Assembly: GCA_035631875.1 (NCBI GenBank)
Contig: DASQHX010000011.1
Coordinates: forward strand, 310,001-374,000
Direction of reading: 5' to 3'
Origin: Nitrosopumilaceae archaeon
Lineage (GTDB): Archaea > Thermoproteota > Nitrososphaeria > Nitrososphaerales > Nitrosopumilaceae
Length of the DNA stretch: 64,000 nucleotides
Shown here: positions 6,461-57,100 of the stretch, piece by piece
Position numbering within the stretch: position 1 is the first letter of the stretch
How the letters are laid out: each line of letters starts with the position of its first letter
Notes under the pieces: model-generated
The model's input: the letters and a program-made list of their open reading frames with translations, nothing else
Databases searched by the model: none
Told to the model about the DNA's origin: nothing
Made by a program: the position numbers and the translations under genes

Positions 6461-7498
6461 CTATGCCCACGGGTCCATTCCTTTTGAAAATCTCAAGGCA
6501 TCTATCAGTCCTTCTGCATATCCTATGCTTAGTACTGCAAGCTCATCCTTTCCTTCACTTTGAAACTTTTCAGCATCTTCCAAGTAAAGATCAGCATTTT
6601 CTAAAACAGATTGAAGTGATTTATCGTCTTTGAATTGTTTTGTTACTTCGTCTAATGCTTTTCTAGCTTTTGGAATGTATTTTTGGAGCATCTGATCTGA
6701 AATTTTTTTAATCTTTGAAGAATTATCAAATGGTTCATCAAGACATTTTGCAAGAACTTTTAACGCATCATGTTCTGTAAAATGCATCTTTCCTGGTATT
6801 ATAATTGTGTGTGGAGGCTTACCGAAACTCGTTTTTTTAAGTGTGGATAATTTTCCTGCTACTATGTTTTGACTTTTTGCACCAATCCTTGATGCCACTA
6901 TTGCAAAACTTGATTCGTCAACAACATTTCTTTTTTGTTCATTTTCAATCCAAAGTAGATTTGTTAATGCATCTTTTGGATCCAAGAAGAATTTTTTATC
7001 ATTATTATATTCTAATATTATTATAGTGTGGCTTCCAGCTATGAGATTTTGATAAATTGTATAATATACACTAGGGACTGATTGTTTCTCATTCATCATG
7101 GTTACAGGCTTTCCTAATTTGTAATAATGTAGACCACATTCTCCAACTAATGAAGTGATAGCAGATGCGGCATGGATTGTTTTTGTTTTAATTTTTTCCA
7201 AAATGGCTCTTGTCCTCAATTCTATGTGAGTTGTTGCTATGTAGGGATCTCCATATGAGACAAGTACAACATTTTTCTTTTTTGCTTCTTTGAGAATTGC
7301 CTTTCCGTCCTCTACAATCCATCTTGGTGCAGTTTTGAACTCGCCTTTTACCATCTTTTTTATTTTTAGCATTTCTGATTGTGGAATAGGACTAGTAAAT
7401 ATTTCAAAAAATACTACGTCTGCACTCTTTAGTATTTTCAATGTATCAAGACCTATTCCATCAGGACCAGAAATTCCTAGACCTACAAACCAAAGCAT
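6461..7498 (-). CDS. dphB: diphthine synthase fused to a C-terminal DUF357-type helical domain
   Basis: A 345-residue protein. Residues 1 to about 260 are the SAM-dependent tetrapyrrole-methylase fold of DphB, seen in MLWFVGLGISGPDG, GDPYIATTH and the HAASAITSLVGECGLHYYKLG stretch, which methylates the modified histidine of elongation factor 2 during diphthamide synthesis. DphB alone is normally about 260 residues. The extra 80 residues (helical, from about SDQMLQKYIPKARKAL to the C-terminus) resemble DUF357, a short archaeal helical domain. The fusion suggests DUF357 works with EF2 modification. It follows lysK by 37 bases. Confidence 0.9.
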   Translation of the reverse strand: MLWFVGLGISGPDGIGLDTLKILKSADVVFFEIFTSPIPQSEMLKIKKMVKGEFKTAPRWIVEDGKAILKEAKKKNVVLVSYGDPYIATTHIELRTRAILEKIKTKTIHAASAITSLVGECGLHYYKLGKPVTMMNEKQSVPSVYYTIYQNLIAGSHTIIILEYNNDKKFFLDPKDALTNLLWIENEQKRNVVDESSFAIVASRIGAKSQNIVAGKLSTLKKTSFGKPPHTIIIPGKMHFTEHDALKVLAKCLDEPFDNSSKIKKISDQMLQKYIPKARKALDEVTKQFKDDKSLQSVLENADLYLEDAEKFQSEGKDELAVLSIGYAEGLIDALRFSKGMDPWA

Positions 7499-7535: not shown

Positions 7536-8654
7536 TTATTTACTATGCAATCTTTTTAGATGATAAAGCATTTGCTTGAAAACTTCAATACTTCTAAGAA
7601 ATTCATCTACGGAAACCCGTTCATCTATGGTGTGAGATGCATGTGGATCTCCTGGACCATATGTGACAACAGGTATATTCAATGCATTTCCAATTATGTT
7701 CATATCGCCGGTTCCAGTTTTTCGAATTAACTGAGGCCTTGCTTTTTCAACATCTAGTACTCCCAAAGTTAATGCCCTTACAAGTGGTGAGTTGTGTGGT
7801 GCCTCAAATGGTTCTGTTTCATCAAGTACAGAATAAAATGCATTAACTCCTTGTTTTTTTGCAACCTCTTGTACTGTGGTTGCTATTTTTTCTCCAACTG
7901 TTTTGCAGTTCATGTTTACTGGAATCCTGATATCCATTATTGCATCACATTCTAGTGCTGTTACATTGTGACTAGTTCCTCCTTTTATCTCAGTTAAAGT
8001 AGCTGTTAGGATCATACCCTTTGGTTTGTCAGATTGGTTTGCCTCTAGTGAATCTTTGAGTTCTTTAATGAACACATATGACTCGTCTATTGCATTTTTT
8101 GCAAGCCAAGGAGCGCTAGCATGTGCACTATTTCCTACATTTACTTTGAGATTGATAGCAATTCTTCCCTTGTATGCTATTGTTATATTTCTAATTCCGC
8201 TTGGTTCACCAAAGATGGCATAATCAATATCGAGTTTTTGTTTAACCAAACTTTTGATTCCTGTTGCATTTCCTTCTTCATCTACTACTGCCGCAAATAC
8301 TACAGTTCCACTATTGTTTTGAATTGATGCTGCGGCAAGAAGCATTGCCATAAGTGGAGCCTTTGCATCAGAAGCGCCACGTCCATAAATGTACCCGTTG
8401 TCATTTTTTACTTTTATTTTACCAGGTACTGTATCCATATGCCCACACAAAAGAATTTTTGGAGAGCCAGCTCCTTTTGTTGCAATAAGATTTCCAACCT
8501 CATCAATGTGAATGTTTTCAAATCCCAAATCATCACACTTGTCTGCTAAAAATTCTGCAAGAGGTTTTTCTGCAAGTGAAGGAGTGTAAAGCCTAAGTGC
8601 TTTCTCAAGCATCTTTACTGAAAACCTTGGTGTTACGGTAATTGAAGAGTCCAA
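7536..8654 (-). CDS. lysK: [LysW]-lysine / [LysW]-ornithine hydrolase (M20 metallopeptidase)
   Basis: A 372-residue M20 peptidase that releases lysine or ornithine from the LysW carrier, the last LysW-dependent step. Metal-site motifs are GHMDTVPG (His72, Asp74), GRGASDAKAP (Asp96), VVDEEGN (Glu126/Glu127, general base) and FGEPSG (Glu150). The C-terminal PGDPHASHTIDERV is the usual last-ligand region. It lies 3 bases downstream of lysX in an operon with homocitrate synthase and lysW. As in Sulfolobus, one LysK probably serves both the lysine and the arginine branches, since no second copy lies in the window. Confidence 0.9.
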   Translation of the reverse strand: MDSSITVTPRFSVKMLEKALRLYTPSLAEKPLAEFLADKCDDLGFENIHIDEVGNLIATKGAGSPKILLCGHMDTVPGKIKVKNDNGYIYGRGASDAKAPLMAMLLAAASIQNNSGTVVFAAVVDEEGNATGIKSLVKQKLDIDYAIFGEPSGIRNITIAYKGRIAINLKVNVGNSAHASAPWLAKNAIDESYVFIKELKDSLEANQSDKPKGMILTATLTEIKGGTSHNVTALECDAIMDIRIPVNMNCKTVGEKIATTVQEVAKKQGVNAFYSVLDETEPFEAPHNSPLVRALTLGVLDVEKARPQLIRKTGTGDMNIIGNALNIPVVTYGPGDPHASHTIDERVSVDEFLRSIEVFKQMLYHLKRLHSK

Positions 8655-8657
8655 TTC

Positions 8658-9506
8658 TTATTTTCTCGACTGTAGTGCGTAATCTATCATCATTGCTGGA
8701 ATATCTACACCAGTAACTCTGACGGTATTTTTGTATTCTGTTGTGTTGTTTACTTCATGTACAACAAGGCCCTTTTCTTTACTTTCCATTAGATCTACTC
8801 CTACTATCTGACCGTATACAGCATTTTTTGCCTTGATACAAATATCTTCCAATTCTTTTGTCACCTCGCACACTTCGGCTCTTCCGCCAAGTGCCATATT
8901 TGTTTTCCATTGTCCGTCTCCAGAGTATCGGTATATGGCAGCAACTACCTTGTCTCCTATCGTGATCGCTCTGATGTCTCTGGGCGGTCTTTGCACAAAT
9001 TCTTCTAGATAATATACTTGGTAAATTGGGTACATTCTCTCTCTGCTTTCCATTATTCCTTCGGCAGAATCGCGATCCTTTAACAGTGCGATCATTCTTC
9101 CCCAACTACCTACCGTTGGTTTGAGCACCATTGGGTAACCGTTATTTTCTAGGGCTTCTAGTGCAGCTTCTTCAGAAAAGGCAACTGCACTAAATGGTGT
9201 TGGTATATTTTGTTTTTGCAAAAGCATATGTGTGAACAATTTGTTTCCGGCAAAGATGCTGGTGTTTAAAGAATTTATCACATTTACTCCTTTTCCTTCT
9301 AGTGCTGCTGTTGAGTGAAGACTACGATAGTAACTAACACATCTTTGTAATACGGTATCGAAGTTATCTTTTCCTTTGTCTAAATCTAAAAATAAATTCT
9401 TACAGTCCACCATCTTTATGTCGGTATCTTTTTTCTTGCCTGCGTCAAAGAGTGCTTTTTCTTCCCACCGGATGGTGTCGTAAAGAATCGATAAACCTGA
9501 ACTCAC
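8658..9506 (-). CDS. lysX: LysW-alpha-aminoadipate ligase (ATP-grasp)
   Basis: A 282-residue ATP-grasp ligase of the LysX/ArgX family, which joins an amino acid to the C-terminal Glu of LysW. VLKPTVGSWGRM and VVHEVNNTTEYKNTVRV are the nucleotide and metal-binding motifs. YKNT followed by TGVDIP resembles Thermus LysX as I remember it, whereas the second copy (14450-15307) has FKGL at that position. With homocitrate synthase in the same operon this favours alpha-aminoadipate as substrate. The start is GTG and overlaps the stop of lysW as GTGA, implying translational coupling. The neighbouring LysW ends in Gln, which is odd for this enzyme's acceptor. Confidence 0.85.
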   Translation of the reverse strand: MSSGLSILYDTIRWEEKALFDAGKKKDTDIKMVDCKNLFLDLDKGKDNFDTVLQRCVSYYRSLHSTAALEGKGVNVINSLNTSIFAGNKLFTHMLLQKQNIPTPFSAVAFSEEAALEALENNGYPMVLKPTVGSWGRMIALLKDRDSAEGIMESRERMYPIYQVYYLEEFVQRPPRDIRAITIGDKVVAAIYRYSGDGQWKTNMALGGRAEVCEVTKELEDICIKAKNAVYGQIVGVDLMESKEKGLVVHEVNNTTEYKNTVRVTGVDIPAMMIDYALQSRK

Positions 9507-9667
9507 TGGCCCCAGTCCTCACCAACAGTTTGTGCTGGTTTTAACTCAAAGCCGGTAGATCCTTTTACAAGTTCAAAGCTTGCACCACAATCTGGACATG
9601 TTATTATTTCTCCTGCCATGGAATCTTTTGGAGGGGAGATGTTTGCATCACATTCTAAACATTTCAT
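9503..9667 (-). CDS. lysW: amino-group carrier protein LysW, variant ending in Gln
   Basis: A 54-residue zinc-ribbon carrier protein that protects the amino group of alpha-aminoadipate during lysine synthesis. It has two CxxC pairs (Cys3/Cys6 and Cys24/Cys27). The family ends in EDWGE, and the side chain of that last Glu carries the substrate. Here the end reads EDWGQ: the last codon is CAG (minus strand, 9508-9506) before TGA. One base change would restore GAG. It starts 1 base after the homocitrate synthase stop and overlaps lysX by 4 bases. The other LysW in this window keeps EDWGE. Whether this is genuine biology or a sequence error is open. Confidence 0.9.
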   Translation of the reverse strand: MKCLECDANISPPKDSMAGEIITCPDCGASFELVKGSTGFELKPAQTVGEDWGQ

Positions 9668-9668
9668 A

Positions 9669-10859
9669 TTATTTTCCTGTTTTTATCTTCACTTGGGTGT
9701 CATTAATTATCTTTCTTTCCAGTCTGTCATCTAATGGAATTTCAAGCAAGTCTCCCATTCGCAAGTTCTTAAGACCTGCTGCAACAGCTTTGGCATGCTC
9801 ATCATTTTGTTCTAAACCTAAAAGAGACATTAGATATGCCGCACCGTTTTTACCAGCCAGTTCTCCAAATACTATTCTTCTCCGGTTTCCTACTACTTTG
9901 GGATCAATTGGCTCGTATGCTGCAGGGTTTCTAAGAATAGCAGCTAGATGAGTTCCTGCCTTGTGTTTGTAGGCAGTAGCACCAACTATTGGCTTGGAAT
10001 CATATGGTCTGATAGTAGTATATTGTTCGATTAACCTTGAGAGATCCATTAACATATCTAACCTGAAACTGTTTGGAGATTTGTAAAGATAGGATAATGC
10101 AATTGCAGTTTCTGCTAATGCAGGAATTCCAGTCCTTTCACCAATCCCGTCTATTGTAGTGTGAATTTGATCTGCTCCGGCATCACAACCAGCAAATGCA
10201 TTTGCTAATGCCAGCCCAATATCATTATGACAGTGTACATCAAGTGGTATTTTTATTTGATCACGAACTGTTTTTACTAAATTATACATTCCATTTGGGC
10301 GCATTATTCCTACCGTATCTGGAATACTTATTCTGTCAACACCAACTTCTTCAATTGCCTTACACATCTTTATCAAAAATTCTGGCTCTGCTCTGCTGGC
10401 ATCTTCCATTGTAAATCTCATTTTGAGTCCGTGTGATTTTGCATATTCTACAGTCTCAACTGCTCTGCGTAACGCCTCTTCTCTAGTTATTCTTAATTTA
10501 TCATTTAGATGTATATCTGACATTCCAAGATATGTGGCCATCCAAGTTGCATCGCAATCAAGTGCAATATCGACATCTTCCTTCAAGGCACGTACATGTG
10601 CTACAATATCTGCTCTTAATCCTTGTTTGATTATTGTTTTTGTTGCTTCTTTATGATCACTTGATACAACTGGAGAAATCTCAATTTGATCAACACCAAA
10701 ATAATCAAGCATCCATGCAATTTGGATTCGTTGTTTGTTTGAAAATGTAACTCCTGGATGTTGTTCTCCTTCTCTTAGAGTGCTATCTAGGACATGAATT
10801 TTCTTTGGTTTTACTCCAATTTCATTATATTTGTATGCGTAGTAATTCGGATCGTCCAT
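9669..10859 (-). CDS. homocitrate synthase-like enzyme (DRE-TIM metallolyase)
   Basis: A 396-residue member of the homocitrate / isopropylmalate synthase family. LDSTLREGEQHPGV (about 24-37) is the N-terminal signature with the metal-binding Asp and catalytic Arg, and HCHNDIGLALANAFAGCDAG is the second signature. No regulatory LeuA dimer domain is present, which fits the shorter homocitrate synthases. Condensing 2-oxoglutarate with acetyl-CoA, it would feed the LysW-dependent aminoadipate route; lysW, lysX and lysK follow immediately. A candidate operator palindrome lies 25 bases before the start. Isopropylmalate or citramalate synthase activity is the alternative, but the operon makes it unlikely. 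Confidence 0.85.
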   Translation of the reverse strand: MDDPNYYAYKYNEIGVKPKKIHVLDSTLREGEQHPGVTFSNKQRIQIAWMLDYFGVDQIEISPVVSSDHKEATKTIIKQGLRADIVAHVRALKEDVDIALDCDATWMATYLGMSDIHLNDKLRITREEALRRAVETVEYAKSHGLKMRFTMEDASRAEPEFLIKMCKAIEEVGVDRISIPDTVGIMRPNGMYNLVKTVRDQIKIPLDVHCHNDIGLALANAFAGCDAGADQIHTTIDGIGERTGIPALAETAIALSYLYKSPNSFRLDMLMDLSRLIEQYTTIRPYDSKPIVGATAYKHKAGTHLAAILRNPAAYEPIDPKVVGNRRRIVFGELAGKNGAAYLMSLLGLEQNDEHAKAVAAGLKNLRMGDLLEIPLDDRLERKIINDTQVKIKTGK

Positions 10860-10977: not shown

Positions 10978-11397
10978 TTAAGTTACAGTACGTAATATGA
11001 TGACCGTGTTGGTATCAAACACACCAGGAACTTTGCGCAAAGAATCAATACACACATTGATATCTGTAATGGTTGGTGCTCTGATTATAACTGCAATATC
11101 ATACTGTCCAGTAATTTCATAAACAGTATGGACACCGTGTAGCTTTGTTAATTTTGCTGAAACTTTGGATGTGTCAGTTGCAGAATCCACAGAAATCAAA
11201 ATGATTGCACTAGTTGCATTTGCATCTCCTGTTTCTACTGTGAATTTTTTTATGATTCCACCATCAGTAAGATTTTTTACTCTTCTTCTTACTGCAGATT
11301 CAGAAAGACCAAGTTTTTGTCCTATCACTACAAAAGATTCCCTAGAATCTTTTTTTAATATTTCAATGATTGAATCATCTGTTCTGTCTTTAGACAT
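10978..11397 (-). CDS. Lrp/AsnC-family transcriptional regulator, LysM-like
   Basis: A 139-residue Lrp/AsnC regulator. The N-terminal HTH (about 5-50, SFVVIGQKLGLSESAVRRRV) is followed by a RAM ligand-binding domain (about 62-139) with YEITGQYDIAVIIRA. In Sulfolobus the family member LysM controls the lysWXJK genes in response to lysine. The gene overlaps the 3' end of lysJ by 8 bases and sits just before the homocitrate synthase-lysW-lysX-lysK cluster. It is therefore placed to sense lysine or a related amino acid and control both halves of the pathway. The ligand is inferred from context. Confidence 0.85.
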   Translation of the reverse strand: MSKDRTDDSIIEILKKDSRESFVVIGQKLGLSESAVRRRVKNLTDGGIIKKFTVETGDANATSAIILISVDSATDTSKVSAKLTKLHGVHTVYEITGQYDIAVIIRAPTITDINVCIDSLRKVPGVFDTNTVIILRTVT

Positions 11398-12565
11398 TTC
11401 TTCTTTTTTCCTCTTTTCCTATTATCATATCTAATGTTTCTAAAGCTTTGGTTATATCTGATTCAGAAATGACAAGAGGTGGTAGTAATCGCAATATGTT
11501 CTTTCCAGAATATAAAAGTAAAAGGTTGTTTGCTATTCCATCAAACAAAATATCTTTTACTTCAAATTTCATTTCTACTCCAATCATCAAACCCTTACCT
11601 CTTACTTCACGAATAATTTTGTGCTTTTCCTTTAATCTCTCTAATCCTTCTCGGAATAGTTTTCCCATTTTTGCTGCATTTTCAACCAATCCATCTTGTG
11701 TCAAGGCTTCAACTGAAGCAATACCTGCAGCGCATGAAAGAGGATTTCCTCCAAAAGTAGATGATTGCTCACCTTTACTAATACAAGCGAGAATATCCTC
11801 TCGTACCAATGTAGCTCCCATAGGAACTCCTCCTGCAATTCCCTTTGCTAGGCACATAATATCTGGAGTCGTATCCCAGTGTTGACCTGCCCACATCTTG
11901 CCAGTTCTGCCAAGGCCAGCCTGAATTTCATCAAAGATCAAAAGAATGCCTTTTTCATTACATAATTTTCTAACAGCCTGTAAGAATCCATCTGGTGCAA
12001 CATGAATTCCACTTTCTCCCTGTATTGGTTCTATTATGATAAATGCAGTATCAGAATTTATTGTAGATCTTAAAACTTCAATATCTCCAAATGGTGAGAA
12101 TGAAACTTTCTCTACTAATGGTTCAAATGGTTTTCTATATTTTTGACTAAATGTAATTGAAAGAGATCCAAGTGATTTTCCATGATAAGAGCCATTCATT
12201 GCTACCATTCCAGTTTTACCGGTGAATTTTCTTGCAAACTTTATTGCGGCCTCTACTGCCTCAGTTCCACTATTATTTAGATAAACTTGATTTAGATTCT
12301 TTGGAGCTATTTTCATCAGAGTTTCTAAGAATCGTTCACGTGTTTTGTTGTAAAGTGAACTATGTACTGTTATTATTTTATCAAGTTGTTCTTTTATTGC
12401 CTTTACAACACGTGGATTGCAATGACCAACAAGAGCAACACCATATCCACCCATACAATCAATGTACTCTTTTCCGTTAGTGTCCCACACATGTGAACCA
12501 AGACCGCGTTCTATTGTAACAGGAAATCTCTGATAGATATTTCCCATGAATTGATCTTCAATCAT
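11390..12565 (-). CDS. lysJ: [LysW]-aminoadipate semialdehyde / glutamate semialdehyde aminotransferase
   Basis: A 391-residue class III PLP aminotransferase of the ArgD/LysJ type. YLNNSGTEAVEAAIKFAR binds the cofactor phosphate region, IIIEPIQGESG and FDEIQAGLGRTGKMWAG are family signatures, and Lys241 in LAKGIAGG is the expected Schiff-base lysine. It converts the LysW-bound semialdehyde to LysW-lysine or LysW-ornithine with glutamate as donor. Its start overlaps the end of lysZ by 4 bases (ATGA), and its 3' end overlaps the Lrp gene. Only one copy is present, so it probably serves both branches. Confidence 0.92.
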   Translation of the reverse strand: MIEDQFMGNIYQRFPVTIERGLGSHVWDTNGKEYIDCMGGYGVALVGHCNPRVVKAIKEQLDKIITVHSSLYNKTRERFLETLMKIAPKNLNQVYLNNSGTEAVEAAIKFARKFTGKTGMVAMNGSYHGKSLGSLSITFSQKYRKPFEPLVEKVSFSPFGDIEVLRSTINSDTAFIIIEPIQGESGIHVAPDGFLQAVRKLCNEKGILLIFDEIQAGLGRTGKMWAGQHWDTTPDIMCLAKGIAGGVPMGATLVREDILACISKGEQSSTFGGNPLSCAAGIASVEALTQDGLVENAAKMGKLFREGLERLKEKHKIIREVRGKGLMIGVEMKFEVKDILFDGIANNLLLLYSGKNILRLLPPLVISESDITKALETLDMIIGKEEKRRNV

Positions 12566-13362
12566 TTTGTAATCACCGTACAGTTATCGTGTGCAATGGC
12601 AGCTGATATGGGGTTTTCTCTTTGACCGTTTGCAATAAGAGCTTGTTTTACTCCCATCTCGAGGGATTCTGTTGCAGCAAGTATCTTTTTTTCCATACCA
12701 AAGCCTATTTTTGGAAGAATTTCCTTTGCTTCAGCTAAAGAAAGTTTCTTTACAAGTTTTTCATCCATCAGTAAACCATCCACATTAGTCAAAAACAAAA
12801 TCTTGTCAGATTGCATCTTACCTGCTACATATGCGGCGGCTCTATCTCCATCTACATTAAGAAAATCAGATTCTTCGCTTATTGCAATTGGTGATATGAC
12901 TGGAACGTAGCCTTGATCTAGGATTGATTTTATAAGACTCGAATTTACTTCTTTTATCTTTCCAGTATATCCTCCATCTATTGCCATCTTGCGACCTTTT
13001 TCATTAATCACAATCAATTTTTTTTTGCGTTCAGCCTGAATAATTCTTCCATCTACACCTGACAGTCCAACTGCATTGATGCCATTTTTTTGTAACATTC
13101 CTACTATCATTTTGTTTATTTTTCCAGACATTACCATGGTGAAGATCTCTACAGTTTCCTTGTCAGTAAATCTACTTTTTATTCCGCCTGGAGAAACAAT
13201 GAATTTTTGTTCTTTTCCTAATGCCTCTGAAATCTTTGTTACTTCTTTTCCTCCTCCATGTACCAGAATTACTTTTTCTTTTTCTGAAACTTTTTTTAGA
13301 TCAGAAATAGTTGACGGATGAAGTCCATCTACTACACTTCCTCCGATCTTGATTGTAATCAT
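12562..13362 (-). CDS. lysZ: [LysW]-aminoadipate / [LysW]-glutamate kinase
   Basis: A 266-residue amino-acid kinase of the ArgB/LysZ type. KIGGSVVDG (about 5-13) and VHGGGKE (about 34-40) form the phosphate-binding loops, and VSPIAISEESDFLNVDGDRAA is the second nucleotide and substrate region. It phosphorylates the side-chain carboxylate of the amino acid carried by LysW. The gene is coupled by ATGA overlap to lysJ downstream and separated by 4 bases from lysY upstream, inside one operon. Specificity for the LysW-bound substrate is inferred from the surrounding lysW, lysX and lysY genes. Confidence 0.92.
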   Translation of the reverse strand: MITIKIGGSVVDGLHPSTISDLKKVSEKEKVILVHGGGKEVTKISEALGKEQKFIVSPGGIKSRFTDKETVEIFTMVMSGKINKMIVGMLQKNGINAVGLSGVDGRIIQAERKKKLIVINEKGRKMAIDGGYTGKIKEVNSSLIKSILDQGYVPVISPIAISEESDFLNVDGDRAAAYVAGKMQSDKILFLTNVDGLLMDEKLVKKLSLAEAKEILPKIGFGMEKKILAATESLEMGVKQALIANGQRENPISAAIAHDNCTVITK

Positions 13363-13366
13363 TTTC

Positions 13367-14419
13367 TCACACAGGTGTTAACGGAGAATATCTGAGACCT
13401 TCCATCTCGTCAAAACCTGCCATTACATTCATGTTTTGTATGGCAGAACCAGCTGCCCCTTTCATCAAATTATCTGAGGCTGACAATACCACCAATCTAT
13501 GATTGTCTTCATCTATATCAAATCCTACATCACAAAAGTTGGATCCAACTACAAACTTTGGATCCGGAAACTTGTAGAATCCTTTTTTATCACGAATTAA
13601 TCTGATAAATTTTTCATTACCATATTGTTCACGATATAACTTCCAAAGGTCCATCTCGCTCATTGGATTGTTAAGGAAAGTGTGATTTGTACACAATATT
13701 CCTCGTACAATATCTACCGCATGTGGACTCATAGAAACATGAATCTTTTTTCCTGCAACCTCTGTTAACTCTTGTTCTATTTCACCGGTATGTCTGTGCT
13801 TTGCAGGCTTGTATGGTCTGATCACTCCTGACCTTAAAGCATGATGGGTACCAGCCAAAGAACCTGCACCTGCACCAGATGAACCAATTTTTGAATCAAC
13901 AATGATGTGTTCTGTATCAATTAGGTTTTTTTTCACTAGTGGATATAACGCAAGTATTGAAGTTACTGCCATGCATCCAGGACAAGAAACAAGTTGTGAT
14001 TTTTTAATTTGTTCTCTGTGAATTTCTGGAACTCCAAAAACTGATTTTGACAATAATTCTGGATAAGGATGTTGCCAGCCATACCACTTGTCATAATCTG
14101 GGGCATTGTGAAGACGATAATCTGCACTTAGATCAATTATTTTCATTCCACGATCATACAATGCCTTTACTATCTCAGTTGCTGTTCCATGCGGTACTGC
14201 AGTAAAAACAAGATCACACTTGTCTGATAATTTGTCATAATCTAATTCAGAAAATGTAATATCAGTAAATCCTTTCAAGCTTGGCTGAATCCTTGAAACA
14301 TATTCTCCCACATATTGTCTTGACGTTACCATGGAGATCTCTACTTTGGGATGGCTTACAAGTAGTCTGAGCATTTCTCCTCCCACAAAACCTGATGCGC
14401 CGATAACTCCTACTTTCAT
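13367..14419 (-). CDS. lysY: [LysW]-aminoadipyl / glutamyl phosphate reductase
   Basis: A 350-residue NADPH-dependent reductase homologous to ArgC. GVIGASGFVGGEMLRLL (about 4-20) is the dinucleotide-binding loop. LVSCPGCMAV carries the catalytic Cys149, equivalent to the ArgC NPGCY motif but with Cys in place of Asn. It reduces the LysW-bound acyl phosphate to the semialdehyde. It lies between argX (30 bases upstream) and lysZ (4 bases downstream). The same enzyme is likely used for both lysine and arginine, as in Sulfolobus. Confidence 0.92.
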   Translation of the reverse strand: MKVGVIGASGFVGGEMLRLLVSHPKVEISMVTSRQYVGEYVSRIQPSLKGFTDITFSELDYDKLSDKCDLVFTAVPHGTATEIVKALYDRGMKIIDLSADYRLHNAPDYDKWYGWQHPYPELLSKSVFGVPEIHREQIKKSQLVSCPGCMAVTSILALYPLVKKNLIDTEHIIVDSKIGSSGAGAGSLAGTHHALRSGVIRPYKPAKHRHTGEIEQELTEVAGKKIHVSMSPHAVDIVRGILCTNHTFLNNPMSEMDLWKLYREQYGNEKFIRLIRDKKGFYKFPDPKFVVGSNFCDVGFDIDEDNHRLVVLSASDNLMKGAAGSAIQNMNVMAGFDEMEGLRYSPLTPV

Positions 14420-14449: not shown

Positions 14450-15307
14450 TTATTTTATAGCTTGCTTGATTGCAAAATCAATCATTTCTTTTGGAATATT
14501 CTTTTTTGAAACTTTTGATAATCCTTTGAACTCTACGGTATTGTTTACTTCGTGTACAACTAGTCCTCGTTTTTCATCTTCCATTATATCTACTCCCAAT
14601 ATTCCTCCACCTACTGCTTTTGATGCTTTCATACAAACATCCTCTAACTCTTTTGTTATCTCACACAAAATTGGTTCTGCACCAAGAGCAATGTTTGTCT
14701 TAAAACCGCCAGACGAAGTTCTATACATTGCAGAAATGACTTGATCTCCTACTACAATACCACGAATATCTCTTGGAGGTCTTTTTATCATTTCTTGAAG
14801 GTAGTAGATTCTGTCTAATGGTCCATCACTTAGTTCTCTTACTTCGATTATCGCATCTGCAGTTTCTCTGTCCTTAAGAGGTATGACGCCTCTTCCCCAG
14901 CTTCCTACTATGGGTTTGATAACTAGTGGATATCCTACTTTTTCAAGATTCTCAAGTGCAGCTTCAGGTGAGAATGAAAAATATGTTTTTGGGGTAGGTA
15001 CATTGTGTTTTTTTAACAAAAGTGATGTTATCATCTTGTTGCCACAGTTATTTGCAACTTCATATTTGTTTATGACTGGCACATCAAGAAATTCTAAACA
15101 TGCAGTAAAATGCAGACCTCTGAAATAGCTTACACATCTTTCCAGTACTACATCACCAAAATCAAAATCATTTTTTTTACTTTCAGTACTTACCTGAGTT
15201 ACTTTGGCATCAATCATCTTTGTATCGTGACCAAGCTCGATTGCTTTTTCCTCGAGCATTTTCTCCTCTGTTCTGACTCGATCGTAAACGATACGAATCT
15301 TTGACAT
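14450..15307 (-). CDS. argX: LysX/ArgX paralogue, probable LysW-glutamate ligase
   Basis: A 285-residue ATP-grasp ligase paralogous to the gene at 8658-9506. It has VIKPIVGSWGRGVIPL and VVHEVNNTVEFKGL. The tail reads KVSKKNIP where LysX enzymes have TGVDIP, so the substrate pocket differs. Its operon starts with argininosuccinate synthase, which favours glutamate as substrate and ornithine/arginine as product. It begins directly after the stop of the EDWGE-type lysW. The lysine/arginine split is inferred from motif and context; a LysX function cannot be excluded. Confidence 0.82.
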   Translation of the reverse strand: MSKIRIVYDRVRTEEKMLEEKAIELGHDTKMIDAKVTQVSTESKKNDFDFGDVVLERCVSYFRGLHFTACLEFLDVPVINKYEVANNCGNKMITSLLLKKHNVPTPKTYFSFSPEAALENLEKVGYPLVIKPIVGSWGRGVIPLKDRETADAIIEVRELSDGPLDRIYYLQEMIKRPPRDIRGIVVGDQVISAMYRTSSGGFKTNIALGAEPILCEITKELEDVCMKASKAVGGGILGVDIMEDEKRGLVVHEVNNTVEFKGLSKVSKKNIPKEMIDFAIKQAIK

Positions 15308-15475
15308 TTATTCTCCCCAATCTTCGCCGACTTTTTCAGCGTGTTTGAGTTGACAAGTGGTGCCATTTTTCGAGGCTATCTCAAAATCTGCTCCGCAGTC
15401 AGGACATGAAATTATTTCTCCTACACTTGCATCATCTGGAATTTTTAACATTGCATCACATTCTGGACAATTCAT
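15308..15475 (-). CDS. lysW: amino-group carrier protein LysW, canonical EDWGE terminus
   Basis: A 55-residue LysW with Cys3/Cys6 and Cys24/Cys27 as the zinc-ribbon ligands, an acidic surface, and the canonical C-terminal EDWGE whose last Glu side chain is the attachment point for glutamate or alpha-aminoadipate. It lies 11 bases downstream of argG and directly abuts argX. The copy at 9503-9667 is similar in sequence but has lost the terminal Glu, so this copy may be the only one that can carry substrate in the classical way. Confidence 0.93.
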   Translation of the reverse strand: MNCPECDAMLKIPDDASVGEIISCPDCGADFEIASKNGTTCQLKHAEKVGEDWGE

Positions 15476-15486
15476 ATTTTATTTTT

Positions 15487-16674
15487 TCACCTCTTTTTTA
15501 GTAATTTATTAGCTTCTGTTGATTGGAGTCCCCACAACTCAACAAATCCTTTTGCCAAAGTTTGATCAAATGTGGAACCAGATCCATATGTTGCCAAGTC
15601 ATGGCTGTACAACGAATATTCTGATTTTCTTCCAACTACTATTAGACTTCCTTTAAACATCTTTAGTTTTACAGTTCCGCTAACTCTCTTTTGAGTCGCA
15701 TTGATAAACATATCTAAATCAGATTTTAGTGGATCCTGCCACAATCCGGAATATGCTAACCAAGCCCATTCTGAATCTACAAGTGATTTGAATCTAAGTT
15801 CGTGTTTTGTAAGAACCATCTTTTCCAGATCGGTATGAGCCTCAATGAGACAAGTTGCTGCCGGTGTTTCGTATACTTCACGTGATTTTATACCAACTAC
15901 ACGATCTTCTATGTGATCCACAATACCTACTCCACAAGCGCCTGCCTTTTTGTTGATGTATTGTATTAGTTCAATAGGTTTTAGCTGTTTACCGTCTGCT
16001 GCGACTGGTACACCTTCTTTGAATTTTATCTCTAGATATTGTGGTTTATCTGGCATATTCCTAGTCTTTACCCAAATGAACGCATCTTCTGGTGGTTCCT
16101 TGTATGCATCTTCCATATCTCCTCCTTCAATAGCACGACCCCACAAGTTTTGATCTATACTAAATCTTTTTGCGGCAGTATCTATTTGGATGCCGTGTTT
16201 TTTTGCAAATTTTAGTTCAACATCGCGTGTAAGATTAAGATCCCTAATTGGTGCTATGATAGGAAGTGTAGTACCTGAACGCATTGTAACATCAAATCTT
16301 ACCTGATCGTTTCCTTTGCCTGTGCAGCCATGTGCAAGTGCTTTGGCATTTTCTTTTTTTGCAATATCTACTACCTTTTGTGCAATCAATGGCCTTGCTA
16401 GTGCAGTTGCAAGACAATATTTTTTCTGATAAAGTGCATTTGCCTTTATAGAAGGAAAAATGAAATCATTTACAAATTCTGAACGCGCATCCAAGTTGTA
16501 ATGTTTTACTACTCCAAGTTTTTTTGCCTTTGATGCGATCTTTTTTTGATCATCACCTTGACCTACATCTATTGTAACAGTAACTACATCCAAGTTGTGT
16601 TTTTCTTGGAGATATTTTACAACAACTGAGGTGTCTAAACCACCAGAGAAAGCTAGAACTGCTTTTCCTTTCAT
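15487..16674 (-). CDS. argG: argininosuccinate synthase
   Basis: A 395-residue argininosuccinate synthase. AFSGGLDTSVVVKYL (about 8-22) is the PP-loop that binds ATP, and HGCTGKGNDQVRF (about 118-130) is a family hallmark. It condenses citrulline with aspartate in arginine synthesis. Length matches the family. It is the first gene of the minus-strand operon that continues into lysW, argX, lysY, lysZ and lysJ, which links that operon to arginine. Argininosuccinate lyase is not in the window. Confidence 0.96.
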   Translation of the reverse strand: MKGKAVLAFSGGLDTSVVVKYLQEKHNLDVVTVTIDVGQGDDQKKIASKAKKLGVVKHYNLDARSEFVNDFIFPSIKANALYQKKYCLATALARPLIAQKVVDIAKKENAKALAHGCTGKGNDQVRFDVTMRSGTTLPIIAPIRDLNLTRDVELKFAKKHGIQIDTAAKRFSIDQNLWGRAIEGGDMEDAYKEPPEDAFIWVKTRNMPDKPQYLEIKFKEGVPVAADGKQLKPIELIQYINKKAGACGVGIVDHIEDRVVGIKSREVYETPAATCLIEAHTDLEKMVLTKHELRFKSLVDSEWAWLAYSGLWQDPLKSDLDMFINATQKRVSGTVKLKMFKGSLIVVGRKSEYSLYSHDLATYGSGSTFDQTLAKGFVELWGLQSTEANKLLKKR

Positions 16675-46771: not shown

Positions 46772-49700
46772 ATGAAAAAAATCTTTCTGTTTTTTTATGG
46801 AATGATTATTTTATCTCTTTTTATGTCATTTTCAATTATTCAGTACGCAAATGCACAAATAGGTATTCTACCGCAACCACCGACAAATCTTACTGCCACA
46901 GCAGTCTCAAGCTCTGAAATTGACCTTAGCTGGACAGCATCATCTGATTTGTTGATATCTGGTTACATGATTGAGAGATCAACTGATGGCGGTGCTACAT
47001 GGTCCACTATTGTGTCCGACACTGGCAATACTGCAACAACTTATTCTGATACTGGACTTGCAGCTAGTACCACATACACATACAGAGTATCAGAAGTAAG
47101 TTCAATTGGAACAAGCTCCCCATCAAACACTGCATCTGCAACGACTCAATCTCCTCAAGCTACAGCTCCACAATCTCCAACAGGACTTAAAGCTAGTACA
47201 GTATCATCATCTCAGATCAACCTAAGCTGGACTGCACCTGCAAACAACGGCGGTTCTGCCATTACAGGTTACATGATTGAGAGATCAACTGATGGTGGAA
47301 CCACATGGAGTACAACAGTAGCAAACACTGCAAACACATCAACAATATATTCTGATAAAGGACTGACAGCAAGCACCACATACATCTACAGAGTATCAGC
47401 GATAAACTCAGTTGGAACAAGCTCCCCATCAAACACTGCATCTGCAACTACAAGTGCCGCATCTACTGCACCACAACCACCAACTGGACTTGCAGCTACA
47501 GCTGCATCATCATCACAGATCAATCTATCCTGGACTGCACCTACAAGCAACGGTGGCTCTGCAATAACAGGTTACAAGATTGAGAGATCAGCCAATGGCG
47601 GCACCATTTGGTCTACTATTCAATCAAATACAGCAAACACAGCTACAACTTATTCTGATACAGGACTTGCTGCAAGTACAACCTACATGTATCGAGTATC
47701 TGCAATCAATGCAGTTGGTACTAGCTCCCCATCAAACACTGCATCTGCAAATACATCTGGTACTACGTCAAATTCCATTGTCTTAAACGGTATCCAGACA
47801 ACATCTGGAACGGTATCTGTAGCGCCATTTCAAATCACACTTGCCAACTTTAATGCTGGAACTGGAACCAATCGTGTACTTGTTGTTGGTGTAGAGGCAA
47901 ACAATAATGCCGTAGCCTCAGTTACATTTGGAGGCGTACATTTAACAAGTAAAGTATCTTCATTTTTTAACAATGATGCTGAATTTTGGTACCTCAAAAA
48001 TCCAACTGGTACTGGAAACATTGTTGTTACAATGGTTGGTTCTACATCAGCGGTAATTGGCGCATATTCTTTCTCTGGAATAGATCAGAGCACTCCAATA
48101 CCTACCAGTACAACAAACCACAATAGCGGTACTGGAAGCAGCCCTACCATATCTATAACAACACAAAACCCAAACAGCTGGGTACTAGACACTCCGTCAA
48201 TCTATGGCGGTGTAACACTTGGTTCCCCAACCTGTACTAAACAATGGGATCTCAACATTCCAAATGCAATCACTGGCGCATCAAGCTCAACTATACAATC
48301 ATCACCTGGTACGGTCACTTGTAGCTGGACTGCAAGTGGAGGGGGTGATCTCTGGGATGATGTTGCAATTGAGCTAAAAGCATCAGGTACTGTTACTACA
48401 GCTATTGCACCACAACCACCAACAGGACTTGCAGCTACAACTGCATCATCATCACAAATTAATCTGAGCTGGACTGCACCAAGCAATAACGGTGGCTCTG
48501 CAATCACCGGTTATAAAATTGAAAGATCAACTGATAGTGGCACCACCTGGTCTACTGTTCAATCAAATACAGCAAGTACATCAACAACATATTCTGACAC
48601 TGGTCTTACAGCAAGTACAACATACACTTACAGAGTGTCAGCGATAAATTCAGTTGGAACAAGCTCACCATCAAACACTGCATCTGCAACTACACCTGGT
48701 ACATGTACTACATGTAAACTGACCGTAACCTCACAATTAACAACAGGAGATCCACTTTTAGGAATGTTTAGTACACTAAACGATCAGGCTAGTGGCAAAG
48801 TATTAGAATCAGGTTTTACTCCAGTCAAATTTAATCTAACAAACGCAGCACAATATACCGTAGCAGTAACACTAAGCTTTGGTACCTATTCATTTAACCA
48901 CTGGCAAGATGGTACCACAAGTGATCCAAGACCCATATCAATATCAAGTGATACACAACTGACTGCAGTTTACCAAGATATCTCAGTAACACTTTCTCCA
49001 TCAAGAGGACCTGTAGGGACCAGTATATCAGTGACTAGTGCCAATAAAATATTCTCACCAAATCACACCATCACACTGACATGGGATGGAACAGCTCTTG
49101 CCACAGCAACATCCAACTCTACTGGAGGTTTTACTGCAAAATTCACTGTACCTTCTTCTGCTAATGGTTCACACAAGGTCCAAGCAACAGATGGAACCAA
49201 TATACATTTTGCTCTATTTACTGTAGGTCCTCCAAGTTCCATATCACTTAACACCAGTACTGCCAATGTGGGCACTGGAGTTAGAGTTACAGGCAGTAAT
49301 TTTGCACCAAATTTGCAAATTACTTTCTCATATGATGGTGCTGCCTTGGATGTGGGTCAAGTAAATACAGGTACTGGTACTGCCATTCCATTAGTAGTAA
49401 CAACTGATTCTAACGGTGGTTTTGTTGCAATAATTTCTATACCGCGTTCTGATGCAGGCACCCACACCATAAGCGCCAAAGACACGACAAACGATATGGC
49501 TACACAGAGCATTACAGTCACACCACATGTGTTTATCTATCCAGCATCAGGACATGCAGGATCTCAGGTAATGATTCCAGCAAGCCAAGGAAATGGCTTT
49601 GCAGCAAGTTCTGCTGTTACAATAAAGTTTGATGGTACAGTGATCTCTTCTATGACAACAGATTCTGGGGGCAACTTTGGAGGAAGTTTCACCATACCAA

Positions 49701-50995
49701 GTGGAGCTACAATTGCCAGTCACACTATTCAAGTCTCAGATGGAAAGGGCAATACACAATCTGTTTCATTTTCTGTTACTGATCCAACCACTCCTACATA
49801 CAAGGTTCAAAATGTAACATCAATGTCAGGCCTTGTTTTACCAGACAGGTTTGCATTTATTCCAGATAACGGTCCTGGTATAGATGGTTCTGGGGCATTT
49901 ATGGTTATTGAAAAGAATTCTGGAAAGGTAATCGTATTTAAAAATACAAACGGCAAGTTTGTAAGACAACTAGTACCGTTTGTGAGAGTACCAAATCTTT
50001 TGACAGGACCTGAAGACAATGGACTATTAGGAATTGCCATTGATCCAAACTGGAAAAACTCTATATCCTCGCAGTATGTCTACTTGGACATTACAAGAAC
50101 CATATCAGGATCAAACTTTACAGAGATTATAAGATACCATGCTACAACTGATCCTACTACTGGAAATATTATAGCTGATACATCTGTAGGTGAGCAGCTT
50201 GTACTTGGCAACATTTTGGCCTGGAGAGATGGCCACAACGGAGGTAATCTAGAGTTTGATTCTCATGGACACCTCTACATATCAACAGGTGATGGCTGGT
50301 TGTATACTCCAGGACAGGACCTGACAACATTACAGGCAAAGTTACTCAGAATCACTCCACTTGCATCTCCTGATGCTAGTGGGAAACTATATTCAATTCC
50401 AAGTGACAATCCATTTGCATCAAGTACTGATACATCAATCAAAAAAGAGATCTGGGGCTATGGTGTAAGAAATCCATTTTCATTTGATATAGATTCCCAG
50501 ACAGGCAAGCTGTATGTATCTGATCCAGGTTTCAATACATGGGAAAGAATTGAGGACCTTACTACTGCTGGTAGTAACGTTGGATGGCCAAACTATGAAG
50601 CACCACCATTTGGTAATCCACAAAACTTGGTAAACTATAAACCACCAGTATACTGGTATCCGCACCAGGGAATGGAACCACAGACAGGTATTACTGCTGG
50701 CCTTGAAGCTCTCACAGGAGGTGTATTTTACCACTGTAGTGCAAACTGTTACACATCATCAAATCTACAGGGAGCATATTTCTTTGGTGATTATGGAGTT
50801 GGCTTTATTGCAGCACTCTTGCCATCAAGTACAGCTCCACCTATAACGGATCCTGCAAGTGGAGCTCCAAAAGGACAGATCGTTCCAATATACTATGGAC
50901 TAGCATATGCTCCAATAGACATGCAGGTCTGGAATGGAAAACTCTACTTTCTTGACTTGGCAGTCGGATCAGTTGATGTGTTAAACTATAGCTAA
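46772..50995 (+). CDS. giant secreted protein: fibronectin-III repeats plus soluble sugar dehydrogenase domain
   Basis: A 1407-residue exported protein. A signal sequence (about 1-28) precedes three fibronectin type III repeats (to about 330), a beta-sandwich domain (about 333-545), a fourth FN3 (about 550-640), a CxxC-bearing module (CTTCKLTVTSQLTTG), and IPT/Ig-like modules (about 740-1010). The C-terminal 390 residues are a YliI/PQQ-type sugar dehydrogenase propeller (SEDNGLLGIA-type block, DGHNGGNLEFD with the active-site His, IWGYGVRNPFSFDID). The enzyme may oxidise extracellular sugars or the fold may bind glycans. The FN3 DNA is repetitive, and a paralogue lies at 54118-58005. Confidence 0.85.
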   Translation: MKKIFLFFYGMIILSLFMSFSIIQYANAQIGILPQPPTNLTATAVSSSEIDLSWTASSDLLISGYMIERSTDGGATWSTIVSDTGNTATTYSDTGLAASTTYTYRVSEVSSIGTSSPSNTASATTQSPQATAPQSPTGLKASTVSSSQINLSWTAPANNGGSAITGYMIERSTDGGTTWSTTVANTANTSTIYSDKGLTASTTYIYRVSAINSVGTSSPSNTASATTSAASTAPQPPTGLAATAASSSQINLSWTAPTSNGGSAITGYKIERSANGGTIWSTIQSNTANTATTYSDTGLAASTTYMYRVSAINAVGTSSPSNTASANTSGTTSNSIVLNGIQTTSGTVSVAPFQITLANFNAGTGTNRVLVVGVEANNNAVASVTFGGVHLTSKVSSFFNNDAEFWYLKNPTGTGNIVVTMVGSTSAVIGAYSFSGIDQSTPIPTSTTNHNSGTGSSPTISITTQNPNSWVLDTPSIYGGVTLGSPTCTKQWDLNIPNAITGASSSTIQSSPGTVTCSWTASGGGDLWDDVAIELKASGTVTTAIAPQPPTGLAATTASSSQINLSWTAPSNNGGSAITGYKIERSTDSGTTWSTVQSNTASTSTTYSDTGLTASTTYTYRVSAINSVGTSSPSNTASATTPGTCTTCKLTVTSQLTTGDPLLGMFSTLNDQASGKVLESGFTPVKFNLTNAAQYTVAVTLSFGTYSFNHWQDGTTSDPRPISISSDTQLTAVYQDISVTLSPSRGPVGTSISVTSANKIFSPNHTITLTWDGTALATATSNSTGGFTAKFTVPSSANGSHKVQATDGTNIHFALFTVGPPSSISLNTSTANVGTGVRVTGSNFAPNLQITFSYDGAALDVGQVNTGTGTAIPLVVTTDSNGGFVAIISIPRSDAGTHTISAKDTTNDMATQSITVTPHVFIYPASGHAGSQVMIPASQGNGFAASSAVTIKFDGTVISSMTTDSGGNFGGSFTIPSGATIASHTIQVSDGKGNTQSVSFSVTDPTTPTYKVQNVTSMSGLVLPDRFAFIPDNGPGIDGSGAFMVIEKNSGKVIVFKNTNGKFVRQLVPFVRVPNLLTGPEDNGLLGIAIDPNWKNSISSQYVYLDITRTISGSNFTEIIRYHATTDPTTGNIIADTSVGEQLVLGNILAWRDGHNGGNLEFDSHGHLYISTGDGWLYTPGQDLTTLQAKLLRITPLASPDASGKLYSIPSDNPFASSTDTSIKKEIWGYGVRNPFSFDIDSQTGKLYVSDPGFNTWERIEDLTTAGSNVGWPNYEAPPFGNPQNLVNYKPPVYWYPHQGMEPQTGITAGLEALTGGVFYHCSANCYTSSNLQGAYFFGDYGVGFIAALLPSSTAPPITDPASGAPKGQIVPIYYGLAYAPIDMQVWNGKLYFLDLAVGSVDVLNYS
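46871..48710 (+). repeat. FN3-coding repeats in the first giant gene
   Basis: Repeat units of roughly 290 bases begin near 46871, 47171, 47465 and 48410. The stretch GTTGGAACAAGCTCCCCATC recurs with few or no changes at 47411 and, with one change, near 48653. Similar units lie in the gene at 54118. They invite recombination and copy-number change. Confidence 0.75.
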
Positions 50996-54117: not shown

Positions 54118-57100
54118 ATGAAAAAGAATTATCTTAATATCTCATTAGGGATCTTTTTATTTTTACTATTATTTACCCCTATCACTAACAATCAAGTTGT
54201 AAATGCACTGGGCACTACTTCCACACTAACTGTTAACACACAAGATCTCAACGGTGTTGCTATCTCCGGCGTTTACATACAACTCTATACAAATGGAAAA
54301 CAGATAGCTTCTGGATACTCTCCTGCTACATTTATTGTTAACAATACACAGACGTATACTGTTGCACCCAACAATTATCTTACCTATATCTTTGATCACT
54401 GGCTTGATACCGGTTCAACAACTAGTACTAGAGACATATCAATATCTTCTGATACTGCAATAACTGCAGTTTACAAAACAGTTACTTCTCCTACAAGTGT
54501 TGCACCACAATCTCCAACTGGATTAACAGCTACTGCTGTGTCCTCATCACAAATTAATCTAAGCTGGACAGCTCCCTCAAACAACGGCGGTTCAGCTATA
54601 ACAGGATACAAGATTGAGAGATCAAATAATACTGGAACTACATGGAGTACAACAGTAGCAAATACAGGTTCTACAGCTACAACATATTCTGATACAGGAT
54701 TGTTACAAAACTCAACCTACACTTACAGGGTATCAGCAATCAATAGTGTAGGCACAAGTCCTCCATCAAGTACTGCATCTGCAACTACATCTAGTGCAGC
54801 TACTGTTCCACAATCACCAACTGGACTTGCAGCTACAGCTGGAAACTCTCAGGTATCACTCTCATGGACTGCACCATCATCTAATGGTGGCTCTGCCATA
54901 ACAGGATACAAAATATACCGTGGCACAGCAGCAGGTGGTGAAGGTACAACCTCTGTTGGCACAGTAAGCGGTTCGACGTTATCTTATACCGATACTGGAC
55001 TGACAAACGGTCAAGCATATTTCTACAAGGTAACAGCTGTAAACTCTGTTGGCGAGTCTGCACAGTCAAATGAGGCAAGTGCAACACCTGCAGCTGCTGC
55101 CACAGCTCCACAACCGCCAACTGGATTAACAGCTACTGCTATTTCATCATCTCAAATTAATCTCTCATGGACTGCACCATCAAACAATGGAGGTTCAGCA
55201 ATCACCGGTTACAAGATAGAGAGATCAACTGACAGCGGAACTACCTGGTCTACCATACAATCAAATACAGCAAACACATCTACAACTTATTCTGATACTG
55301 GACTTGCTGCAACTACAACTTACACCTACCGAGTATCAGCGATAAACTCAGTTGGTACCAGCTTTCCATCAAACACAGCTTCTGCAACTACATCCAGTGC
55401 AACTATATCTGGTTCTAGTATCTCACTTAATACAAATTCTGTTAATGTAGGAACATCCGTAAGAATCACAGGTGCCAAGTTTGCATCAAACTCACCGATT
55501 ACCATATCATATGATTCCTATACATATGCATTCAACTCTGCAAACGATGCACCCACTCCATCTAATATTCAAACCGATTCTAATGGAGGTTTTGTCGGAA
55601 TAATTGCGGTACAGCATTCTGTTGCAGGAGCTCACACCATCATAGTTCAGGATGCAGCAAAAAATACAGCTACTGCCACCGTTACTATGACACCACACGT
55701 ATTTATCTATCCAACATCAGGAGCTGCCGGCTCCCAAGTACTGATTCCAGATTCCAACGGTAATGGCTTTGCAGCAAGTTCAACAATTACTATAACATTT
55801 GATAATGCAATGGTTTCCACTTCAAGTACCATAATTTCCGACACCACTGGTAACTTTGGAGGAAGCTTCACAATACCCAGCGGAGCTTCACTTGGCACAC
55901 ACCAGATTCAAGTATCCGACGGTAAGGGTAACGTTTACCCTATTTCCTTTACTGTTGTCAGCTCGTCGACTCCTACATACAACACTCAACCTATAGCAAC
56001 AGGACTCAGTATTCCAGACAGAATGGCCTTTATTCCGGATAACGGTTATGGCGTAGATGGCTCCGGTACATTCATGGTTCTTGAAAAGAATACTGGAAAT
56101 GTAATCGTATTCAAAAATACAGGCAGCCAATTTGCAAGACAGGCAACACCCTTTGTAACCATACCAAACCTGCAAACAGGATCTGAAGACAATGGACTTT
56201 TGGGAATTGCCTTTGATCCAAACTGGAAAAACTCCGCATCCTCACAGTATGTTTACTTTGATGTTACAAGGACCATATCAGGATCTGTCGTAAGTGAGGT
56301 TATCAGATATCATGCTACAACTGATTCATCTGGAAATATAGTAGCAGATTCGTCTATAGGTGAACAGCTTGTACTTACTTCTCCAGCTTGGCAGGATGGT
56401 CATAACGGGGGTTGTCTCAAGTTTGACTCTGCAGGCAACCTCTACATAGCTGTTAGTGATGGATGGACATTTAAAGGACAGGATTTGACAATACTGCAAG
56501 GAAAGATTCTCAGAATTACTCCACTTGCATCTCCTGACGCTAGTGGAAAACTCTACTCGATTCCAAGTACAAACCCATTTGCATCAAGTACCGATCCTAG
56601 TATCAAAAAAGAGATCTGGGGCTATGGTGTGAGAAATCCATATACATTTGATATTGATTCCAAGACAGGCAGAATATATGCATCAGATGTGGGTTACAAT
56701 GCATGGGAGAGCATAAAGAACTTTACAGCTGCCGGTGCAAATGCTGGATGGTCAAACTATGAGAGCCCACCATTTGGTAATCCACAAAACTTGGCAAGCT
56801 ATACACCGCAAGTATACTGGTACCCACACGAAGGAATAGAATCACAGACAACACCAGAGGGTCTTCAGGCCCTTACAGGTGGAATCTTCTATCACGGGAC
56901 CTACTATCCAAATTACGAAGGTGCTTATTTCTTTGCAGACTATGGATTACACATGATTTCTGCACTCTTACCATCGAGTACAGCTCCGCCTACAATTGAT
57001 CCAGCAAGTGGAGTTCCAAAAGGACAGGTTGTACCAATATACTTTGATAAATCTATTGCACCAGTTGATCTGGAAGTCTGGAACGGAGGAATCTACTTCA

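Follow-up and report, generated by a model that had tools for sequence, protein, structure and literature searches.

A LysW carrier protein encoded with a terminal glutamine is conserved in most ammonia-oxidizing archaea

The LysW carrier protein encoded at positions 9503-9667 of the window, by which is meant the whole 64,000-nucleotide stretch of DNA that was analysed, ends in EDWGQ, and this terminal Gln is conserved in most ammonia-oxidizing archaea (AOA) and is not, as the original prediction had treated it, the mark of one odd copy. Judged from sequence, the Gln-ended protein is very probably a working carrier, either after modification or without it. The chemistry of the lysine/arginine carrier in these organisms probably differs from the textbook scheme, the encoded protein being either an amidated pro-carrier that is switched on by deamidation or a carrier that is loaded on its α-carboxyl group. 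In the accepted reaction, the amino group of the substrate is joined to the γ-carboxyl group of the terminal Glu of LysW, and the GSWGR motif of the ligase is said to recognize EDWGE (PMC10433800). The original prediction was right to regard a Gln as foreign to this chemistry, for the terminal Glu bears the substrate, and an E54A substitution in ArgW from the haloarchaeon Natrinema gari abolishes function, leading to arginine auxotrophy (PMC10433800).

The final codon of the gene, referred to here as LysW1, is CAG (9508-9506), which begins, as had been proposed, with base 9508. It is followed by a TGA stop (9505-9503) that overlaps, as GTGA, the GTG start of LysX1 (8658-9506). By sequence the encoded protein is a true LysW. 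It scores 81.4 bits against the curated LysW model NF041070 (cut-off 75) and 42.7 against Pfam PF21344 (cut-off 27), it displays the paired and invariant cysteines of the zinc ribbon (C3, C6, C24, and C27), and it is partnered with LysX and the LysZ/Y/J/K genes in a cluster that is conserved across the order. The one defining feature that it fails is the C-terminal EDWGE with its attachment-site Glu, EDWGQ being encoded both in the window and in most AOA. A profile search of the source genome revealed two LysW genes only, LysW1 and LysW2, and a direct reading confirmed the ends given for both in the original prediction. The relevant features of the window are as follows.

7536-8654, minus strand: LysK-like [LysW]-lysine hydrolase, a candidate Gln-to-Glu enzyme (TIGR01902, 260 bits, above cut-off; PRK04443, below cut-off)
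8658-9506, minus strand: LysX1, ATP-grasp ligase and partner of LysW1, GSWGR kept (TIGR02144, 329 bits, above the cut-off of 275.6; 3vpd, E = 8.6e-60)
9503-9667, minus strand: LysW1, 54 amino acids, ending in EDWGQ (NF041070, PF21344, and likeness to the solved LysW proteins 3vpb_E and 3wwl)
9506-9508, minus strand: terminal Gln codon CAG where a Glu codon is expected (direct reading; conserved across the family)
9669-10859, minus strand: homocitrate synthase-like protein, HCS/IPMS family (TIGR02146, 383.7 bits, cut-off 413.55, and PRK00915, 427.6 bits, cut-off 517, both below; synteny with LysW1)
10978-11397, minus strand: LysM transcription regulator (NF040947, 185 bits, above cut-off)
11390-12565, minus strand: LysJ-like aminotransferase (TIGR00707, 434 bits, above cut-off)
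12562-13362, minus strand: LysZ, [LysW]-aminoadipate/glutamate kinase (NF010662, 301 bits, above cut-off)
13367-14419, minus strand: LysY/ArgC reductase (TIGR01850, 420 bits, above cut-off)
14450-15307, minus strand: LysX2 (X2), second LysX/ArgX ligase (TIGR02144, 303 bits, above cut-off)
15308-15475, minus strand: LysW2, ending in the normal EDWGE (NF041070, 86.2 bits)
15487-16674, minus strand: ArgG, which from its position and its sequence we take to be argininosuccinate synthase (adjoins LysW2 in most syntenic loci)

The gene order, namely ArgG, LysW2, LysX2, LysY, LysZ, LysJ, LysM, the homocitrate synthase-like gene, LysW1, LysX1, and LysK, is kept throughout the archaeal order, whether or not a lineage has ammonia monooxygenase. 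The LysW1-LysX1 pair is flanked by the homocitrate synthase-like gene and LysK, a position that suggests membership of the lysine branch; likewise, the location of LysW2-LysX2 beside ArgG suggests the arginine branch. In Nitrosocaldus (L128-L134) the cluster is split, with LysW1-LysX1-LysK lying apart from the rest. The gene at 6461-7498, presumably diphthine synthase-like, adjoins LysK in most loci of the window's own family (f1, which includes Nitrosopumilus, Nitrosotalea, and Nitrosarchaeum) and of family f8, and has no obvious link to the pathway. Two very long open reading frames are also found in the window, at 46772-50995 (1407 amino acids) and 54118-58005 (1295 amino acids).

A pattern search for EDWGQ followed directly by a stop codon retrieved 219 of the 250 genomes of family f1, including 126 of the 131 good genomes and all 22 of its genera, and the reversed control pattern gave no match in the same 250 genomes. 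At all family loci that were translated the motif falls in the homologous gene. For the 31 genomes without it, a protein search revealed a Glu-ended LysW1 in five (G142, G214, G228, G246, and G238) and a LysW1 cut by contig ends in three; in the remainder that search did not find LysW1. The five represent reversions to Glu (GAG TGA) in two separate lineages of the genus Nitrosopumilus (L185-L189). In G046, a Cenarchaeum-like MAG of f1 (L051/L264), it is LysW2, normally Glu-ended in this family, that ends in Gln.

In an order-wide sample, Gln ends were also observed in f8 (Nitrososphaera, Nitrosocosmicus, and Nitrosopolaris) and in Nitrosocaldus (f2, genus g23). A search for AmoA marked f1, f2, f3, and f8 as ammonia oxidizers, the other tested families being negative, and in the families without AmoA all LysW proteins found end in Glu. 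The sole Gln-carrying genome without an AmoA match is G046, which is 72% complete. As far as the search extended, Gln ends thus appear to be limited to ammonia oxidizers, yet f3 and genus g50 of f2, also ammonia oxidizers, keep Glu at the end of both LysW copies. When 84,980 species were scanned for VGEDWGQ followed by a stop, at least 120 loci were obtained, and among the matches listed all but three are LysW proteins of AOA-type thaumarchaea. The three, from outside the archaea (Chloroflexi/Streptacidiphilus/Anaerolineae), are chance matches that lack a stop or a LysW sequence, and pattern-only matches such as that on contig C60 of G259 were rejected given that no LysW surrounds them.

Within f8 the Gln changes place. 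Both LysW1 and LysW2 are Gln-ended in Nitrososphaera (g51), LysW1 ends in Glu and LysW2 in Gln in g53 and g74, and the reverse holds for g44. These patterns led to rejection of the notion that Gln simply marks the lysine branch: in two genera it is LysW2 that bears the residue, and in others both paralogues do. Nitrosocosmicus (g29) possesses a single LysW, which is Gln-ended, and retains LysX2. Indeed, in genomes of the Nitrosocosmicus type (G287, G256, G294, and G306; L141-L144) LysW2 has been lost and LysX2 kept, which means that a single Gln-ended carrier has to work with both ligases.

On the ligase gene tree, some nodes of which are weak, parsimony indicates approximately nine changes between Glu and Gln, of which six affect the LysW1 role and three affect the LysW2 role. 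A set of 276 non-redundant LysW sequences, part of which came from patterns permitting only these two residues, contains 129 that end in Glu, 147 in Gln, and none in anything else; nor was a third residue observed among the LysW proteins retrieved through protein search or synteny. Both Gln codons, CAG and CAA, are used, and all three stops follow them. Recoding of the stop codon was rejected in that the Gln may be followed by TGA, TAA, or TAG, and many of the genomes show no overlap with lysX. From its distribution the Gln end is under selection, because it occurs in every genus of f1 and in two further AOA families.

The most telling genomes are those that encode no other kind of LysW. In six single-contig genomes, three from Nitrososphaera (G300, G370, and G386) and three from Nitrosocosmicus (G256, G287, and G294), the LysW profile finds Gln-ended copies only, the other matches being weak zinc-finger noise. 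Alternative routes to lysine and arginine were rejected, for DapF and ArgJ are absent from the Gln-only Nitrososphaera and Nitrosocosmicus genomes while the control genomes are positive. The examined loci of these lineages retain the genes for LysX, LysZ, LysY, LysJ, and LysK, and lysine and ornithine synthesis must therefore depend on the Gln-ended LysW; that it is loaded we infer. Cultured members of the same lineages grow on mineral ammonia media. The original prediction had held that the oddity would fall away if Gln-ended LysW proved both common and functional in the group. Common it is, whereas its function is a deduction from these gene sets.

None of the partner enzymes displays a matching change. 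The GSWGR motif is present in all 163 of the Gln-partnered ligases among 293 non-redundant LysX proteins, and a column-by-column comparison within the AOA LysX1 clade revealed no position that separates Gln- from Glu-partnered ligases. The LysX1 proteins of ammonia oxidizers (8658-9506 in the window) contain His 93 and Glu 168, where nearly all other LysX proteins have Ser/Thr and Gln, respectively. A co-adapted ligase was rejected, however, as these AOA-specific residues are largely common to Glu-partnered AOA relatives (f3, G292). The apparent differences in X2 are lineage marks that also occur in a Glu-partnered relative (L135). In LysK, LysZ, LysY, and LysJ no change at a near-invariant site follows every Gln lineage. 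Residue 120 of LysZ (12562-13362) is an Asn in 26 of 28 sequences from Gln-carrying families and an Asp in 17 of 18 Glu-only genomes.

The explanation that we favor, tentatively, is that the Gln represents an encoded amidated pro-form. The side chain amide of the terminal residue would be hydrolyzed to Glu ahead of first use, most likely by LysK or by another amidohydrolase, after which LysX would load α-aminoadipate (or Glu) onto the γ-carboxyl group as usual and LysZ/Y/J/K would perform the standard cycle. One maturation event per LysW molecule would be enough, given that the carrier would be recycled as Glu. If both forms end as the same mature Glu, one would expect what was observed, namely that Glu and Gln exchange freely, no third residue occurs, and the enzymes are unchanged. 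In its normal reaction LysK breaks the bond between the γ-carbonyl of the terminal Glu of LysW and the amino group of lysine. The side chain of Gln is the γ-glutamyl amide of ammonia, and LysK is thus the simplest candidate for maturation, for it would encounter the same γ-amide that it cuts, with ammonia replacing lysine. Both the conversion and the role of LysK in it are putative. It counts against the model that the usual product released by LysK is an amino acid, so that cleavage of a bare amide would be a hypothetical further activity. The cluster contains no recognizable gene for a dedicated deamidase. If the model is true, deamidation, possibly by LysK, would release ammonia and tie the pathway to the nitrogen state of the cell.

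The main rival, which we consider unlikely though worthy of serious attention, is that LysX joins the substrate to the terminal α-carboxyl group through an ordinary peptide bond, with the Gln or Glu side chain simply filling a recognition pocket and LysK acting as a carboxypeptidase. In line with this, Gln and Glu are interchangeable with the same ligase, and the absence of a ligase change fits this model as well. The family model places LysX in the RimK ATP-grasp superfamily. Counted in its favor also are that RimK from Escherichia coli adds α-linked Glu residues and that the M20 enzymes, of which LysK is one, include carboxypeptidases. Against it, the recognition motif and the near-invariant positions of the ligase are mostly as in its γ-ligating relatives, and each of LysZ, LysY, LysJ, and LysK would have to tolerate a shortened linker with no corresponding change of its own. 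Moreover, an idle side chain predicts residues beyond Glu and Gln in some species, and none was seen. Far less probable is that a minor, Glu-ended fraction of the translated protein does the work. Archaea make Gln-tRNA indirectly by amidating Glu-tRNA(Gln), and incomplete amidation, possibly greater under nitrogen shortage, would generate such a fraction. The indirect route is established, the use of both Gln codons and all three stops makes a special recoding signal unnecessary, and the pathway would be linked to nitrogen status in ammonia oxidizers. All Gln codons would be affected, however, and selection should have restored Glu in the carrier, yet 22 genera hold Gln.

Strongly disfavoured is the proposal that the Gln-ended LysW is a regulator or a ligase subunit, with the Glu-ended LysW2 carrying both substrates in the manner of the single LysW of Sulfolobus. 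The window does keep a normal LysW2, and the overlap of LysW1 with LysX1 suggests coupled translation. Nitrososphaera has no Glu-ended LysW, though, the only LysW of Nitrosocosmicus is Gln-ended, and in two other genera of f8 it is LysW2 that carries the Gln and LysW1 the Glu. The regulatory, non-carrier copy entertained in the original prediction is made unlikely by such genomes. A dead or regulatory paralogue is rejected on the same evidence, for a degenerate copy should be accompanied by a Glu-ended carrier in every genome that has it, and Nitrososphaera and Nitrosocosmicus encode none. Of the other options in the original prediction, deamidation and attachment to the α-carboxyl survive as the two leading models above, and a sequence error gained its appeal from a difference of one base; as an error of sequencing, assembly, or annotation it is refuted, since the same codon recurs in over 200 species whose genomes were assembled independently, single-contig genomes included.

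Few microbes in soil and sea are as abundant as the AOA, and in making two essential amino acids they rely on a carrier encoded without the chemical group that the pathway supposedly needs. Whether this carrier matures by deamidation, as in the pro-form that we favor, or is loaded through a new linkage, the accepted mechanism and the annotation of these genes would change. The Gln-only genomes sharpen the question of how a Gln-ended carrier is loaded, which can be tested in cultured strains.

No mention of a Gln-ended LysW was found in the open-access literature searched, the main LysW enzymology being in subscription journals beyond that scope, and the same literature gave nothing usable on AOA proteome data or on LysK specificity. 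A genome-scale model of Nitrosopumilus maritimus gives LysW (Nmar_1287) and ArgX (Nmar_1288) the same group and pathway assignment, and the passages found assign the pathway with no mention of the terminal residue (PMC6038301). As far as searched, the Gln-ended LysW is a variant, specific to AOA, in which one defining feature of the protein, the terminal Glu of the encoded sequence, is missing. The LysW proteins from Thermus, Sulfolobus, and Thermococcus (3wwl, 3vpb_E, and 5k2m_E) have the same size, zinc-ligand cysteines, acidic tail, and EDWG motif as LysW1, and their genes likewise adjoin LysX in the same pathway cluster; they end, however, in the substrate-bearing Glu, whereas LysW1 is encoded with a Gln in last place. 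ArgW from N. gari is similarly an archaeal carrier for arginine synthesis with an EDWGE end recognized by GSWGR (PMC10433800). Its terminal Glu is essential in vivo, whereas the AOA genera Nitrososphaera and Nitrosocosmicus live without any encoded terminal Glu.
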